From: Phenylobacterium sp.
Lineage (GTDB): Bacteria; Pseudomonadota; Alphaproteobacteria; Caulobacterales; Caulobacteraceae
Direction: 5' to 3'
Assembly: GCF_013822795.1 (NCBI RefSeq)
Contig: NZ_PNLB01000003.1
Location: 62,001-126,000, forward strand
Length of the DNA: 64,000 nt
Of the stretch, positions 56,597 through 63,188 are shown piece after piece. The notes under the pieces were generated by a model. It saw only the letters and a program-made list of their open reading frames with translations. It was not told the DNA's origin and ran no database searches. Every line of letters begins with the position of its first letter. Position 1 is the first letter of the stretch. A program made the translations under genes and the position numbers.

Positions 56597-56671
56597 GGAT
56601 GCGTAGCTCAGCGGGAGAGCACCTCGTTCACACCGAGGGGGTCACAGGTTCAATCCCTGTCGCATCCACCA
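56597..56671 (+). tRNA. tRNA-Val (anticodon CAC), CCA encoded
   Basis: A full cloverleaf of 75 bases: acceptor GGATGCG pairs with CGCATCC, D-arm TAGCTCAGCGGGAGAGC, anticodon stem CCTCG/CGAGG with loop TTCACAC (anticodon CAC), and T-arm ACAGGTTCAATCCCTGT; discriminator A then encoded CCA. A T-rich tail (ATTTTTCCCTT) follows, probably the terminator. Its 3' end borders the island that holds a tyrosine recombinase, so it is a likely integration site. Confidence 0.95.
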
Positions 56672-56901
56672 TTTTTCCCTTACATTTCAAGCCGCTAGGG
56701 ACTGACCCCGAATTAATTGTCAGTCCGACTGCCAGTTTGAGGGCAAATAGGGGGCACTCTCAGCGCACCCGTGTTCATGGTTCGGTTCACCGTTCCACGA
56801 GGGGTCAGTCGAAATCAGAGCGTTTCAGGACGCTTTCCGGGGTCAGCTCGGTCTGATTCCCCATACACCTGCTGGACGAGGCCGGCCCCTCCACGTGAGG
56901 C
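56672..56901. other. tRNA-proximal island edge with GGGGTCAG repeats and inverted repeats
   Basis: No gene is seen. GGACTGAC (56699-56706) and GTCAGTCC (56719-56726) form an 8-base inverted repeat with a 12-base AT-rich spacer. GGGGTCAG occurs at 56801-56808 and 56839-56846, and its complement CTGACCCC at 56702-56709, so three copies in about 145 bases. They may be arm-type sites for the integrase at 57785. The attachment core would be the tRNA 3' end. Confidence 0.4.
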
Positions 56902-57567
56902 TCAACGGCGACGACGATTCTGTTCGCCGCGCCGGGCAGACTTTCGAGGACCTCGGATAGGCTTCTTCAAGCCCATGTAGAGAAACCCAACTGCAGCCGT
57001 CGCGCTCAGCGCCGCTGCGGCGAGCATCCAGTCGCCCCGCTCGTTGCCTAGGCTTCCCGGGCCAATTGGTTGGCTGGCGTTCCCTGCATTGAAAGACGCG
57101 GCGCTCCCCGAGTAGCCCCTTCCGCCCTCCCTTCCCCCATCGCTGCGCAACAGGTCACCGATCGACTGGCCGTTCAGTTCGCAGCGCGCGACGACTCGAT
57201 CATAGCTCTGGTGCTCGGCAATGCAGACGACGTCCCTTCGCATCGCCAGCCCCTCGAGTGCCCTCTTTGCCGAAGGCCCCTCAGGCGAGCCGAGTTCCGG
57301 GGCATAAAAATCAGCCAGGCGAACTTCGACCCAATCTGACCTGCCAGGGCCAACGCCCACACAGAGGCTGTCACCGTCCCCGACGTAGACAACAGGGCCT
57401 GAGAAGCGCGCTCCGGCCTCGAGATAACTAGGCAAGGGGCCTTGGTCTGGGATCGCCTTGCACGGATCTGCGCGCGCCTCTGCAACGCCTCCTAGACACG
57501 CCAGAGCTATTGCGAGGGGCGCCAGTACTGCGCCCCCACGTTGGACAAGCTTAGCGGCACTGGCCAT
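56902..57567 (-). CDS. Exported SNase-like (thermonuclease family) protein with C-terminal TM
   Basis: The 221-residue precursor has a signal peptide (about 1-35; APLAIALACLGGVAEARA), an SNase-like domain (about 55-150) with YVGDGDSLCVGVG, WVEVRLADFYAPELGSPEGP and SYDRVVARCEL. These correspond to the calcium and catalytic Arg/Glu/Arg region of staphylococcal nuclease. After a Gly/Ser linker comes a TM (about 180-202) and a highly basic tail. It is predicted as a membrane-anchored nuclease facing the periplasm. It lies in the island behind tRNA-Val; whether it acts on foreign DNA is inference. Confidence 0.78.
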   Translation of the reverse strand: MASAAKLVQRGGAVLAPLAIALACLGGVAEARADPCKAIPDQGPLPSYLEAGARFSGPVVYVGDGDSLCVGVGPGRSDWVEVRLADFYAPELGSPEGPSAKRALEGLAMRRDVVCIAEHQSYDRVVARCELNGQSIGDLLRSDGGREGGRGYSGSAASFNAGNASQPIGPGSLGNERGDWMLAAAALSATAAVGFLYMGLKKPIRGPRKSARRGEQNRRRR

Positions 57568-57784: not shown

Positions 57785-59905
57785 ATGGACCTCGAACAGG
57801 GCGATTTCGCTCTAGCCATCTCGCGGTTTTGCCGCCTGCGACTACCGAGAGCCTTCACTGGCGCGGAGGTCCAAAAGCTACGGAATTGCCTCCTCAGCGC
57901 ATGGAAACGAGGCGAAACACCAGCTCGACGCGGCCGGGGCTATGACTGGGTGGACCTGGCCCGAAAGTCAGGCGTCGCGCACGAGCGGATTCTCGCCGGA
58001 CGAAACGTCATTGTCCCGATCCTCGCGGCACACGAGCGAGCGCTTGTCGGGCGACCACAGCTCGCTGCCTCGCCGGATCATCGGTCCAATAGCGCTGATC
58101 CTCGCCCCCGTAGCAGATCTGCTCTTCCGAGAGACGCGGCACCATTCGCGAGAGCCCTCAATCACCACATGACCCGCCATGGCGACAGCAGCTGGTCGCT
58201 GCATGCGGCGATCGCCGGCCCGGAGGACATCCTCGACAAAGGCACGCTTCGCACCTGGCGACGAGGGCTTAAGCAGCCGCAGGCGGTCGAGAGTCTCGCG
58301 CTGCTCAATCGCATTGAACAGCGATATCAGCTTCCGGAGGGGTACTTTCAGGAGAAGCTTGGGCCGCGGCCACGTGCGAGCGCCGGAAAGACGCCGGAAC
58401 TAAGTGCCTCAGAATCTCGACGGCTCGCCTGGCACCTGCCTGACGACTTCGCGTCCCGCCCCGCGGCCGAGCGGGCGCGGATCCTCGAATGGGTGCGCCG
58501 GGTCATCATCTCGGGCAGCACGGACTACCGCAAATATCACGGCGAGACGGTCAAGCAGCGTTTCGGAATGAGATTTGACACGAGCAGGAGGCAGAATGAA
58601 CTCGATGCCCCTCCACAGCTGCAAGAGGAGATGAACGATCTCGCCTCGTTCAAGAGCTCCACGCTCACGAGGACCGGCTTTCAACGCAGCGGGGTCTGGA
58701 ACGAAGCCACAGCGGCTCAGCGGACTGAACACTTTGGCCTCCTCTTTGGCGCGCTTGCCGCCTCGCCAAACGGCGAAGTTCGGGGATTGGGCCTGCCCGC
58801 TGCCGACCTGACCTTCGGAATGCTGCTCTTCCCCGCCGTTTGGGACTGGTACGTCCAATGGCGCGAACGGCGGCGCGGCTTCTACACAAGCTGGGAGGCC
58901 GAGATGCTGCTCCTTGGCGCGGCGCTCACCCGAGCAGAGACAGGCTGGCTACGTCAGCGCCGAGACATCGCCGATCGGCTTGTGCCCGTTGAAGGCCTCG
59001 TGAGTCAGGCCGAGGTCGACGCCGTCAAGACCAACTGGGATCAGGCCTGCGACCGGCTAAACAAACACGCAGTGGCGAGAGCCAAGGAAATCGAACGTGT
59101 AGCCCGCGTCCATCGTGATCCGTTCGAGCCGATCCTGGTGATCCTCGAGGCAGACAGCCCCCTCGCCGAGTACCGCAAGATCACCGAGGAAATCGCGCGG
59201 CGAATGCCGGACCCCAAGCGCTACCCAAAGCCTCATGCTGAGGCGGTGCGATCATTCCTGATGCTCCGCATCGGCCTGCATTCGGGCCTACGGCAAAAGA
59301 ACCTTCGCCAGCTGCTCGCGTGTCGGCAGGACGAACGGCCGCTGACCGAGCGGCAGCTAATCGAGGGCAAACGCGGCGAACTGCGATGGAACGAACGGGA
59401 GCAAGGCTGGGAACTCTTCATTCCTGCAGTCGCCTTCAAGAACTCAAGCTCTTCGTTCTTCGGCAATCGTCCCTTTCGGCTTGTCCTGCCGGACCTGGGA
59501 GGCCTCTACGCCTACATTGACTACTACCTGGAGCGCGGACGAGCGCTACTCCTAAGCGGATCACCCGATCCCGGCACGTTCTTCATTAAGACGGTGAAGA
59601 CCACCAGCCGAAATGCCAGCTACACGCAGAGTGGCTTCTACGAAGCCTGGCGTCTCGTGATTCAACGCTACGGGATCTACAACCCCTACACCGGACGAGG
59701 CGCCATAGAGGGGCTCCTTCCCCACGGCCCTCACAACATCCGCGATGTGCTCGCAACCCATGTGCTCAAGCAGACTGGCTCTTACGAACAAGCGAGCTAC
59801 GCAATCCAAGACACCCCGGAAATGGTCTCCCAGCACTACGGCCGCTTCTTGCCTCAGGACAAGGCCGCTCTCGCGGCGCAGGTTCTCAACAAGGCGTGGG
59901 CATAA
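57785..59905 (+). CDS. Large tyrosine recombinase (island integrase)
   Basis: The 706-residue protein carries a C-terminal tyrosine-recombinase domain: Arg503 in IGLHSGLRQKNLRQLL, His650-Asn-Ile-Arg653 in GPHNIRDVLATHVLK, and Tyr685 in VSQHYGRFL. The second His/Trp position reads IQ, so that residue is replaced. An N-terminal helical region (1-75) and a segment at about 130-195 (MTRHGDSSWSLHAAIAGP, then KGTLRTWRRGLKQPQAVESL) look like an HTH-type DNA-binding part. It is much longer than phage integrases (about 400 aa). Position about 1.1 kb after tRNA-Val fits an integrase acting there. Confidence 0.82.
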   Translation: MDLEQGDFALAISRFCRLRLPRAFTGAEVQKLRNCLLSAWKRGETPARRGRGYDWVDLARKSGVAHERILAGRNVIVPILAAHERALVGRPQLAASPDHRSNSADPRPRSRSALPRDAAPFARALNHHMTRHGDSSWSLHAAIAGPEDILDKGTLRTWRRGLKQPQAVESLALLNRIEQRYQLPEGYFQEKLGPRPRASAGKTPELSASESRRLAWHLPDDFASRPAAERARILEWVRRVIISGSTDYRKYHGETVKQRFGMRFDTSRRQNELDAPPQLQEEMNDLASFKSSTLTRTGFQRSGVWNEATAAQRTEHFGLLFGALAASPNGEVRGLGLPAADLTFGMLLFPAVWDWYVQWRERRRGFYTSWEAEMLLLGAALTRAETGWLRQRRDIADRLVPVEGLVSQAEVDAVKTNWDQACDRLNKHAVARAKEIERVARVHRDPFEPILVILEADSPLAEYRKITEEIARRMPDPKRYPKPHAEAVRSFLMLRIGLHSGLRQKNLRQLLACRQDERPLTERQLIEGKRGELRWNEREQGWELFIPAVAFKNSSSSFFGNRPFRLVLPDLGGLYAYIDYYLERGRALLLSGSPDPGTFFIKTVKTTSRNASYTQSGFYEAWRLVIQRYGIYNPYTGRGAIEGLLPHGPHNIRDVLATHVLKQTGSYEQASYAIQDTPEMVSQHYGRFLPQDKAALAAQVLNKAWA

Positions 59906-59972: not shown

Positions 59973-60893
59973 CTAAGGCTGTCCCTGGAAACGAACCGAG
60001 TAAACAGCCGGCGTGGCGGCCCACGCACTTGTCTCGATGTATGAGACTGGGTCCTGGATGATCTGCACTTTGGGGGAAGCCGTGAGACAGCCAGCGACGA
60101 GGTAGAGCCAATAGCCCTGGCGATGAGTTCTGGCTGAGCGAAGCTCGCCGGCAGTGACCTCAATCCCCGTGAAGCCGCCGCCTGTCGTGCCCTTAACCTC
60201 GACCCGCTGCAGCGTCCCGCCTTCGTCGCGAAAGTCGATGTCCCACCCCGGGGTCTCGCCCATCGCAGCGCGGTGGAAGTGGGCTGTGGAGCCAGGATGC
60301 TCGGCTTTTATGTGCCGAAGGGCCACTGCCTCCGCCCAATCGCCTATCACCTTGGCCTGCTTGGACCTACGGTAGGAGCTCCGAGCGCGGGTCGGTCCTG
60401 AGGTCGCTACAGGGACTACCAGATTGTCGCTCCTAGCGATGACAATGCTAGCGCTCTCAGGCGGGTTTGCAGTCGCAGTGAGCACCCGCCCGCCCGAAAG
60501 CTCCATAATCCGCTGATAGACGGCGGGCTCGAGCGTACGAACGCCGTCACGCCAGAGGTTGGCAGGAATATCCTCCAAATTCACCCCGTCGACCTTCGCG
60601 GGAACCGGCGTCTCAAAACGCTGATAGCCTTCGATCGCGCAGTACCAGGCCTTTCGTGAGCTCTCCTGGGTCTTGGGATCAAGCCAAATAGTCCCGACCC
60701 GCCCAAACCCGACGTACTCGGCGGGACCACGTTTGCCGCCGAGCCGATGTACCCCGCGATAGTAGACGAAGGGTTCGCCGGTCGTGATCTTGCCCTGATA
60801 CTTTGAGGGGTAGTGGTAGTGCACGCCCTCAACGTCATCCCAGGCGTGCGCCGGATTAGTCACGACGTCGTTGTGCACCAAAACCAATGGCAT
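59973..60893 (-). CDS. PUA/EVE-like N-terminal plus DUF3883 nuclease-like protein
   Basis: The 306-residue protein joins an N-terminal region (about 1-130; HNDVVTNPAHAWDDVEGVHY, YPSKYQGKITTGEPFVYYRG, AEYVGFGRVGTIW), resembling PUA/EVE-like modified-base readers, with a C-terminal DUF3883 domain (about 190-280). The latter has GDWAEAVALRHIK, then GWDIDF with Asp218/Asp220 and VEVKGT with Glu232-Val-Lys234, a PD-(D/E)XK nuclease pattern. The architecture suggests a modification-dependent restriction enzyme. The ATG at 60893 has a GGGGGAG site. Activity is inferred only. Confidence 0.72.
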   Translation of the reverse strand: MPLVLVHNDVVTNPAHAWDDVEGVHYHYPSKYQGKITTGEPFVYYRGVHRLGGKRGPAEYVGFGRVGTIWLDPKTQESSRKAWYCAIEGYQRFETPVPAKVDGVNLEDIPANLWRDGVRTLEPAVYQRIMELSGGRVLTATANPPESASIVIARSDNLVVPVATSGPTRARSSYRRSKQAKVIGDWAEAVALRHIKAEHPGSTAHFHRAAMGETPGWDIDFRDEGGTLQRVEVKGTTGGGFTGIEVTAGELRSARTHRQGYWLYLVAGCLTASPKVQIIQDPVSYIETSAWAATPAVYSVRFQGQP

Positions 60894-61169
60894 GTTCGAC
60901 TCCCCCAAGACGGAGACTACCTGCCATTGGCGGTGCCAAGCCACTCAGATCGCGACGAAGTTCTCTGGCGCGCGAGCGCATGTATGGGTGAAGCAACGAG
61001 GAATTGGACTTGTCGCAAGGGTTTGGAAGAAGGCGCTCAAGTCAGCTCGGTGCCTGAAGAAATCACCTCCTGGTCAGGGATGCGGCTCTCCGGCTGCGGC
61101 GACGTCGACATTACTCCCAAAGCCACGCGGGTTTCTGGAGAGATCGAGCGCCGACGGCCACTCCACAAT

Positions 61170-61217: not shown

Positions 61218-61567
61218 ATGGCTTGGACGGTTATCAACCACGACGACCTCGAAGCGGAGCACGACGCTCTGCCTGAGGACGTGCAGGACGAACTCCGCTC
61301 ACCGGCTTTCTGGAGCGGTTCGGTCCGCTGAAACGCCCTCAGGTGGATACGCTGAACGGCTCCGACCATGCGAGCATGAAGGAAATCCGCTTCAAAGCCG
61401 CCGACGGCGTCTGGCGTTTCGCCTTCGCGTTCGATCCCGACCTTCAGGCCGTCATCCTCTGCGGCGGCGACAAGTCGGGCATTTCGGAGAAGCGCTTCTA
61501 CAAGACGCTGATCAAGACCGCCGATGGTCGTTTCAGCGATTGGCTGGACAGGAAGAAAAGGGAGTAG
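61218..61567 (+). pseudogene. higB: HigB/RelE-type toxin gene broken by a frameshift
   Basis: An ATG at 61218 opens MAWTVINHDDLEAEHDALPE, typical of the HigB/RelE (Gp49-like) toxin start, and runs to a stop at 61329. The rest of the toxin lies in another frame: GFLERFGPLKRPQVDTLNGS from about 61304, and MKEIRFKAADGVWRFAFAFD to YKTLIKTADGRFSDWL, ending at 61567. The break lies near 61293-61303, where about four bases seem missing compared with the expected protein. It is either a decayed toxin or a sequencing error. The antitoxin gene follows 3 bases later. Confidence 0.72.
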
Positions 61568-61570
61568 ATC

Positions 61571-61891
61571 ATGGCTCGTCGCACTGACGACATCCTTGCG
61601 GAGATGACGCCGGAACGCCGAGCCAAGATCGAGGCTCGGGCCGCTGCACTGGCCGAGCATGTCAACACGTTAGCTCAGGTCCGGAAGATCGCTGGAAAGA
61701 CCCAAGCTCAGATCGCAGATCAGTTGGGTAAGAAGCAGCCTTCCATCCAAAAGATGGAGCGGCAGGCTGATTTCTACGTCTCCACACTGCGACGCTTCGT
61801 CGAGGCGGCGGGGGGATCTGTAGAGATCCGCATCAATCTCCCCGACAAGCCTCCGATCGTGCTCGACGAGTTCTCCGACCTCCACGCCTGA
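61571..61891 (+). CDS. higA: XRE/HigA-family antitoxin
   Basis: The 106-residue HTH protein has AEHVNTLAQVRKIAGKTQAQ, then IADQLGKKQPSIQKMERQAD as the helix-turn-helix, and a C-terminal GSVEIRINLPDKPPIVLDEF. It is the usual second gene of HigBA loci in which the toxin comes first. It would repress the locus through the paired operators at 61170-61209. With the toxin frameshifted it may persist as an orphan antitoxin. Confidence 0.85.
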   Translation: MARRTDDILAEMTPERRAKIEARAAALAEHVNTLAQVRKIAGKTQAQIADQLGKKQPSIQKMERQADFYVSTLRRFVEAAGGSVEIRINLPDKPPIVLDEFSDLHA

Positions 61892-62186: not shown

Positions 62187-63188
62187 CTAGAAGCGACCAG
62201 CCTCAGGAGCCGTCACGGGCTCCATCGGCCATCGGACAGCGATGAGCTTCGAGCTGGCCATCTTGCTGACCGTCACCTGGTTAAACAGGTTCCCAGCTAG
62301 AACCTCGACGGACCCATCGGGTAGGTCGCGAACGTAGAAGCCCACCATGCCGCCGCCGCTGTCGCCGCGCGTGAAGACGACAACCGCGCCGGGCTTCGCG
62401 GTCTCAAGGGGCGTGCCCCACCTGGACCAGGACACTGCTTGGGCGGAGTTTGTTCCGGCGTATCCCGACTGCTTCATCACCCAGTTCGCGAACTGGCTGT
62501 TCCAGGGAAACTCATCGCCAATCGCCCCTCCCCGCCCTTCGGGCGTCGAGGCGATGAACTCGATGATGCGAGGATTGGCGGCAGCCCCCGGGATTTCTTG
62601 CACGCCGCGTTCCGCGAGGGCGACCTTAAGCCAGGGTGCCTGTTCCGCGCCTCGCTCCAAGATCTCAAGGGATTCGGCCGATACGGAGGGGGCGGCCGGC
62701 GAACCGGCGTTGCCTGACGACACCGGCAGGTAGCCGCCTTCACCAGGCTGCCTGTTGTCCAGGTAGCGCTTCAGATCCCCGTTGGCGTCGCGGTACAGCC
62801 CCATCCTGAGGAGCATCTCGAGATTTTCCGCAGCTTTGTCCGGGTCGCCGACCTTGATCATTTCCAGGACGCGGGCGTACTCGGCCTTGTCACGTTCCTG
62901 CTCGCGAGCGGCGACGCCGTTCCAGTAGGCCACGGCCGCATTCCCGAAGGCGCCGATCGCTGCGGCGACGAGCGCGACCGTGAGAGGGTTCGACCACGAG
63001 GCCCAACGCGCCTGTCTTGTGCGCAGAGAGGCTTCGCTTTCGCGCAAGGCCATGTCGCGTTCGCGCAGCAGGTAGTCGCGTTCGTCCATGGACCGCCGTG
63101 CAATACGGTCGGACTCTTCGAGCGCCAAGCGCTCCCTTTCGAGATCCAGGCGCTCCCGCGCGGGCGTTTGATCGTCGGCCTCGCTCAT
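62187..63188 (-). CDS. Coiled-coil/TM protein with degenerate NlpC/P60-like (TIGR02594-type) domain
   Basis: The 333-residue protein has a Glu/Arg-rich coiled coil (8-60), a TM (about 66-90), a helical module (ARVLEMIKVGDPDKAAENLE, 105-124) and a C-terminal domain (about 184-320) resembling TIGR02594 peptidoglycan-hydrolase-like proteins: PWLKVALAERGVQEIPG, FPWNSQFANWVMKQSG, GAVVVFTRGDSGGGMVGFYV, EVLAGN. The expected catalytic Cys (PWCSAF) is Asn230 and the His (GHVGFY) is Met281, so it is probably not an active peptidase. Its start overlaps the stop of the NTPase gene (ATGA). It may sense or bind cell wall or be a membrane effector. Confidence 0.7.
   Translation of the reverse strand: MSEADDQTPARERLDLERERLALEESDRIARRSMDERDYLLRERDMALRESEASLRTRQARWASWSNPLTVALVAAAIGAFGNAAVAYWNGVAAREQERDKAEYARVLEMIKVGDPDKAAENLEMLLRMGLYRDANGDLKRYLDNRQPGEGGYLPVSSGNAGSPAAPSVSAESLEILERGAEQAPWLKVALAERGVQEIPGAAANPRIIEFIASTPEGRGGAIGDEFPWNSQFANWVMKQSGYAGTNSAQAVSWSRWGTPLETAKPGAVVVFTRGDSGGGMVGFYVRDLPDGSVEVLAGNLFNQVTVSKMASSKLIAVRWPMEPVTAPEAGRF

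Follow-up and report, generated by a model that had tools for sequence, protein, structure and literature searches.

McrBC works with a GTPase and a separate nuclease; the DUF3883 nuclease domain also ends long helicase-type proteins, and a screen by Lutz et al. in 2019 is said to be the one that found EVE enzymes. The EVE domain of VcaM4I flips 5mC/5hmC, and the enzyme restricts T4gt (PMC7897488); putative type IV enzymes of the EVE-PD(D/E)XK and EVE-HNH kinds are described as 'a substantial variety' by Bell et al. 2020 (PMC7641849), and a GIY-YIG type IV enzyme is also on record (PMC12923530). DUF3883 itself, when fused to an SNF2 helicase, has been termed a novel REase domain (PMC3710099), while a 2023 survey of archaeal systems counts DUF3883, 'presumably' so, among the three groups that make up its type II restriction category (PMC10609329).

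The gene considered here lies in a window of 64,000 nucleotides (the whole stretch of DNA that was analysed) from Phenylobacterium sp., and encodes a protein in which a reader domain of predicted EVE-like fold is joined through a linker to a DUF3883/NOV_C nuclease domain; feature coordinates are collected in Table 1.

Gene, relatives and selection

The gene may also be read from a GTG as a longer ORF of 323 aa (59973-60944 (-)); however, the ATG of the 306-aa ORF is likely the start codon, because the alignment of relatives begins at MPLVLVHND and the putative ribosome-binding site GGGGGAG is read 6 bases upstream. Relatives of full or near-full length occur in a genome of the same genus (G022, 52% identity), in another genus of the same family (G1078, 56%), in two metagenome-assembled genomes (L004 and L005, 62 and 63%) and on a Rhodococcus plasmid (L006, about 30%); a further relative, in G297 (L011) and thus outside the family but within the class, is truncated by a contig end where the nuclease domain begins. 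When five copies were compared pairwise, dN was 0.30-0.43 in 10/10 pairs with dS either saturated or 1.9-2.7; dN is far below dS, and the protein is therefore maintained by purifying selection. The gene is real and not a chance ORF, which bears out the call made in the earlier note, the relatives at 52-63% identity aligning over its full length. On contig C30 of G297 (C30:2-560; L036 and L039) a second gene copy is seen at the contig end, its coding sequence divided between two frames and interrupted by a stop.

The gene is both rare and mobile. The order-wide search recovered the gene in 3/398 genomes at E 1e-10, the window's own counted; profile matches were obtained in 26/385 genomes (class search) and 22/398 (phylum search). 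Among the matches listed, the join of reader and NOV_C is seen in the window's own genome only and is presumed for G297, with the remaining class and phylum matches being reader alone or NOV_C alone. Two scans of viral contigs returned no relatives, and phage records gave three matches, two to the reader only and one to the nuclease only. A match in G037 (E 1.8e-4, residues 97-192, 32% identity) was excluded from the counts as likely chance.

Table 1. Features of the locus in window coordinates
Feature	Position	Strand	Basis
Gene for EVE-like + DUF3883/NOV_C protein, 306 aa, ATG to stop	59973..60893	-	ORF and translation; full-length relatives; dN vs dS
Putative ribosome-binding site GGGGGAG	60900..60906	-	read from sequence, presumed
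Reader domain, residues 1-137, predicted EVE-like fold; D20, Y26, P29, Y32, E107, R119	60483..60893	-	AF2; VIA-align; hhalign; 30/30 rows
Linker, residues 138-173, largely low confidence	60375..60482	-	pLDDT
Nuclease domain, residues 174-303, NOV_C/DUF3883, predicted PD-(D/E)XK fold	59985..60374	-	Pfam PF13020; VIA-align
E188, conserved glutamate, first helix of nuclease domain	60330..60332	-	23/24 rows, remaining row gapped
Catalytic stretch D218 ... E232-V-K234	60192..60242	-	24/24 aligned rows
tRNA-Val(cac), integration site of element	56597..56671	+	ARAGORN; repeat
47-bp left-end repeat	56627..56673	+	identical copy at C3:216352-216398, 97,725 bp away, outside window
706-aa protein, tyrosine-recombinase-like C-terminal motif, convergent with gene	57785..59905	+	motif by eye

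Reader and nuclease domains

Residues 1-137 have no Pfam match at E 1, and the earlier idea of a PUA/EVE fold was therefore testable by structure and profiles only. The AF2 model of the window protein was built from 40 sequences with a mean pLDDT of 79.7, falling below 50 at residues 139-148 and 163-175. EVE proteins top the VIA-align list for the modelled reader (Z 11.7-9.8), the best match being 1zce (Z 11.7, rmsd 2.9, 124 aligned), followed among others by 2hd9 (Z 11.4), 2p5d (10.9) and 2eve (10.0); 1zce, 2hd9 and 2p5d, and others with no telling title, are presumably EVE proteins. The modification-dependent enzyme VcaM4I (6yex) matches over residues 1-142 with Z 10.2, and the N-domain of McrB (6n0s) and human THYN1 (5j3e) align at Z 10.4 and 10.2. 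When 30 readers were compared by hhalign with nine canonical EVE domains from related genomes, the probability was 85 (E 6e-6, collinear over 110 columns), whereas two controls gave 0.2 and 1.3; a search of PDB sequences with the 30-reader profile returned 2p5d as its best match (E 0.0032). An EVE fold (PUA superfamily) is predicted for residues 1-137 and is well supported because the matches of the model and these two model-free tests agree; the PUA/EVE proposal of the earlier note thus stood the fold test set for it. Pfam EVE (PF01878) is not reported for the window protein at E 1 and its curated cut-off is not reached; the domain is therefore named EVE-like by fold, and not as a member of Pfam EVE.

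Other folds of this kind were considered in place of EVE. YTH and ASCH reach Z 8.3 and 9.6 at best vs 11.7 for EVE, modest differences within one superfamily; SRA appears among Foldseek matches at weak E-values and is absent from the 50 VIA-align matches listed. A sequence match to the McrB N-domain 6p0f (E 0.58) is too weak alone, but is consistent with the later fold result.

D20, Y26, P29, Y32, E107 and R119 are unchanged in 30/30 readers, a count which, like the 24/24 of the nuclease domain, is biased towards conservation because the rows came from a profile search. The 30-row alignment omits the window protein itself (L001, L010), the split or partial L013, L036 and L039, and L015, L017, L026, L028 and L058, which are similar to kept rows. 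Where canonical EVE domains have WxGVRN..A, the reader clade common to the DUF3883 and HNH fusions has an invariant signature of its own, aromatic-D-D ... Y-H/Q-F/Y-P..Y ... E ... VR. Y26 falls opposite the invariant N of WxGVRN in the profile alignment, a weak one, which suggests that the reader pocket may be unlike the canonical EVE pocket.

The nuclease domain matches Pfam NOV_C (PF13020) over residues 187-279 with E 4.4e-12 and 46.3 bits, above the curated cut-off of 22.1, and one relative is annotated as 'DUF3883 domain-containing protein'. G216, D218, E232, V233 and K234 are invariant in 24/24 NOV_C-type domains and E250 is identical in 22/24; this alignment omits L001 and L010 (the window itself), and 19 of its domains are from proteins without a reader of the window type. 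The DUF3883 assignment and the D...ExK core of the earlier note are thereby upheld, with D218, E232 and K234 where the note had placed them and the ExK residues retained in homologues. For the nuclease part of the AF2 model, VIA-align gives SPARDA 9qcc (Z 8.7), the Hjc resolvase 2wcw (7.9) and I-Ssp6803I (7.2), values of Z 7-9 that are modest and close to the range the tool labels common arrangements; PDB sequences searched with the profile of the 24 nuclease domains gave no match at E 1. Motif, Pfam family and modelled fold agree in predicting that the DUF3883/NOV_C nuclease is of the PD-(D/E)XK type.

Two other identities were rejected. Seven of the eight PADLOC matches of the protein are to TmtA, each aligning only its NOV_C-like tail over 58-138 positions near the ends of models of 1302-1782 positions; the eighth is PDC-S36. 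A PDB sequence match to MlaD at E 0.89 is taken as chance.

The same reader is also joined to other nucleases, and a pattern of one sensor with different cutters (reader-nuclease swapping) is supported by computation. A window-type reader is fused to HNH (PF01844) in a Vibrio plasmid protein (L007) and in L008, whose record bears the label Acinetobacter phage, and to HNH_2 in 4/4 of the proteins of about 300 aa scanned with Pfam, these four being the reader proteins in which HNH_2 is confirmed; outside NOV_C fusions the reader occurs in 16/385 genomes of the class search. Y14, D16, Y22, P25, Y28, E104 and R124 are invariant among 23 aligned full-length proteins with the reader outside NOV_C fusions, and one HNH_2 protein weakly resembles the modification-dependent enzyme TagI in sequence (E 0.0011). 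The AF2 model of one HNH_2 relative (mean pLDDT 72.3) likewise places EVE proteins on top, with 2hd9 at Z 13.1, and aligns full-length with VcaM4I and TagI at poor rmsd. In a tree of the 30 readers, those joined to NOV_C group with L007, L008, L040 and L041 apart from the HNH_2 group (support 100/98); the tree has long branches and an unsure inner order and carries a warning that row L056 may be falsely joined, and L040, counted there with the HNH group, is a 219-aa ORF in which no HNH motif is seen.

EVE-like proteins of the HNH_2 type and about 300 aa were noted at L012, L016, L022 and L034 and at about 20 more loci. Their N-terminal reader has no Pfam model in the four scanned, and is a candidate for a new Pfam family.

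The element and the settings of other copies

A 97.7-kb region is bounded by 47-bp tRNA-Val repeats (C3:118597-216398), and the window copy is found at one end of it, 3.3 kb from tRNA-Val. Inside are a RES-domain gene, the conjugation proteins TrbE and TrbL and, adjoining the repeat on the right, a phage-type integrase; because the repeats, the integrase and TrbE/TrbL lie together, the region is an integrative element and probably a conjugative one. The 706-aa protein encoded convergently with the gene has a C-terminal R...HxxR...Y spacing that we take to resemble a tyrosine recombinase; it matches no Pfam or NCBIfam family and has PDB matches at chance level only, and may possibly represent an undescribed recombinase subfamily.

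Several further ORFs of the element and the window were read from the sequence. TonB-receptor-like and sulfatase-like ORFs of the element were recognised by eye, and a TIGR02594-family protein adjoins a KAP-type NTPase (62187-63188 (-) and C3:125185-127686 (-)). A Gp49/HTH toxin-antitoxin-like pair is present at 61219-61891 (+), in which the 5' part of the toxin appears by eye to be in another frame than the rest; the gene may be broken. A small secreted-looking protein with the motif YVGDGDSLCVG...VRLxDFYAPE is encoded at 56902-57567 (-), C3:206048-206479 (-) and L066:8404-8802 (+); the motif presumably resembles staphylococcal nuclease, and no Pfam match is found for the protein. The window and G022 versions are 55% identical, and a further similar ORF lies at the element's other end.

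The earlier note had placed the gene alone in a defence-like island. This description is only partly right: the element has tRNA-Val repeats, an integrase, conjugation genes, the Gp49/HTH pair and the RES-domain gene, but eight neighbouring proteins compared with PADLOC at E up to 0.01 gave five weak matches (13.8-24.9 bits) in two proteins, with no clear second defence system among the neighbours scanned.

Other copies are found in varied surroundings. The G297 copy is about 610 bp downstream of tRNA-Val(cac), behind a window-like phosphatase gene (product by eye), and the same integration site is therefore apparently used in another family. The site applies to 2/7 copies, the window and G297, and tRNA-Val was rejected as a general home of the gene; the 39 kb surrounding the copy of G022, the 50 kb surrounding that of G1078 and the stretches of L005 and L006 contain no tRNA gene. 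The G022 copy is divergent from an adjacent C5-methyltransferase and a DUF4928 REase_II gene. The G1078 copy has a C5-methyltransferase/GIY-YIG pair about 4 kb away and a DUF4062 gene on one side, with HsdM, DUF4268 and HsdR genes on the other; its methyltransferase is of the same family as that of G022 (58% identical). The Rhodococcus copy (L006) is clustered with GmrSD and AspBHI-type genes, and phage integrases are near the L004 and L005 copies. A mobility, tRNA or restriction feature is thus close to 7/7 copies as a raw count. In G022 the 47-bp tRNA-Val end is repeated (C1:2046254-2046300 and 2056174-2056250) about 10 kb from the tRNA and far from the gene copy, suggesting a small element at the same site in a relative.

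Proposed function and comparison with known systems

By analogy with described EVE enzymes, the protein is probably a modification-dependent restriction endonuclease (type IV) that works as a single chain and independently of NTP. Building on the computed gene, fold, nuclease family and motif, reader swapping and element, we infer base flipping, dimerisation, DNA cleavage, a target base and phage restriction as follows. The EVE-like domain at the N-terminus would take a modified base from the DNA duplex by base flipping, the receiving pocket probably involving the invariant D20, Y26, P29, Y32, E107 and R119; the PD-(D/E)XK nuclease (E188, D218, E232 and K234 with a divalent metal), probably as a dimer, would then cut nearby. 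As cargo of an integrated element, the window copy would guard both its host and that element against phages, or competing elements, whose DNA is modified.

The target base may be considered in light of host methylation. Relatives of a C5-methyltransferase of the window's genome (G000 C14:28328-29398) occur in 24/24 host-genus genomes examined, two matched in part only, and the enzyme probably sets a core 5mC mark of the genus; a cutter of 5mC in any context would therefore harm its own host. The window protein is thus unlikely to target plain 5mC in the context that the host itself methylates, and a phage-type modification (e.g. 5hmC or a hypermodified pyrimidine) or a 5mC context not made by the host is more likely. 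It is suggested only tentatively that the reader senses a base outside 5mC/5hmC, such as a hypermodified pyrimidine, m4C or m6A, which would be a new specificity spread by mobile elements; the suggestion is made because the reader signature is distinct from that of canonical EVE and the hosts carry C5-methyltransferases.

The main rival is a type II enzyme, because the 2023 survey put DUF3883 'presumably' in that category (PMC10609329); here the EVE-like domain would serve as a DNA-binding or sequence-recognition module, and methylation by a C5-methyltransferase, nearby or in trans, would block cutting. A C5-methyltransferase near 2/7 copies (G022 and G1078) fits such a modification-blocked enzyme too, as does the related methyltransferase throughout the host genus; however, the G022 and G1078 methyltransferases each directly precede another nuclease-type gene, the DUF4928 REase_II and GIY-YIG genes respectively. 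Furthermore, the window copy has no adjoining methyltransferase among seven flanking ORFs scanned with Pfam, the nearest found among the ORFs scanned being of the N6/N4 type at 15.5 kb, and none is annotated in the 16.7-kb L006 stretch, whose gene table is incomplete with many hypothetical proteins. The EVE enzymes VcaM4I and TspA15I, moreover, favour modified cytosine (PMC7897488), and a type II role is considered unlikely.

Two further accounts carry still lower probability. A nuclease of the mobile element's life cycle (resolvase- or Hjc-like, or acting in competitor exclusion), with an EVE-like domain binding unmodified DNA or RNA, would be in keeping with Hjc resolvases as structural neighbours, with the integrase genes near L004 and L005 and with the recombinase-like gene and tRNA-Val repeats near the window copy; it is nevertheless held to be quite improbable, as the window's element has an integrase already, HNH nucleases (one of them weakly like TagI) carry this reader too, and the G1078 and L006 copies stand among restriction genes with no integrase seen in the genes examined around them. 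The rarity and patchiness of the gene could point to a degenerate or inactive passenger with no present function, but dN far below dS in every pair, intact catalytic and reader signatures and a plausible ribosome-binding site make this a very improbable explanation indeed.

Should the proposed modification-dependent endonuclease prove active, it would to our knowledge be the first EVE-PD(D/E)XK enzyme to have been tested, and DUF3883 would be tried for the first time as the nuclease part of a small enzyme with one chain. The reader is common to a larger set of HNH proteins, and one experiment would therefore inform many genes; an enzyme with new base specificity would also be of use in the mapping of modified DNA bases.

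Compared with McrBC, the reader is predicted to be of the same superfamily as the McrB N-terminal readers (6n0s, 6p0f), whereas a GTPase and a separate nuclease are not part of the window gene. At E 1 no Pfam match to the McrB AAA+ GTPase domain is found in the window protein and NOV_C is the only family reported, with no match to Mrr_cat (Mrr / MspJI-type); the earlier view that the protein is neither McrBC nor Mrr therefore agrees with Pfam. Proteins with DUF3883/NOV_C at the C-terminus of a long chain, and the MrcB_N-NOV_C protein (L009), share the same nuclease domain and D...ExK; however, no window-type reader is detected in the long frames (1,069-1,307 codons, class search), and L009 carries MrcB_N in its place. 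In the EVE-like + HNH_2 proteins of the window's class and phylum the reader is homologous and shares the invariant D, Y, P, Y, E and R, but the nuclease is HNH_2. As in the EVE-HNH enzymes VcaM4I, TspA15I and CmeDI (PMC7897488), an EVE-fold sensor and a nuclease are predicted in one chain; in contrast to these, the window nuclease is PD-(D/E)XK DUF3883 and not HNH, and the reader is beyond the Pfam EVE model. The base-flipping pocket of VcaM4I includes Y130, W82, E15 and others; that of the window protein probably involves the invariant reader positions given above.

No description of an EVE-like + DUF3883 fusion was found in the literature searched, in which coverage of subscription journals is thin. 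The available portion of the Bell et al. 2020 account of EVE-PD(D/E)XK type IV enzymes does not name DUF3883/NOV_C (PMC7641849); the window protein nevertheless shares their core architecture and predicted function, and by prediction has both an EVE fold and a fused PD-(D/E)XK nuclease with intact catalytic residues. The earlier note had seen no recognised type IV family in this protein; membership in the predicted class makes it less of an orphan than was held. It is a further member of the EVE-PD(D/E)XK kind predicted in 2020, apparently uncharacterised as far as found.
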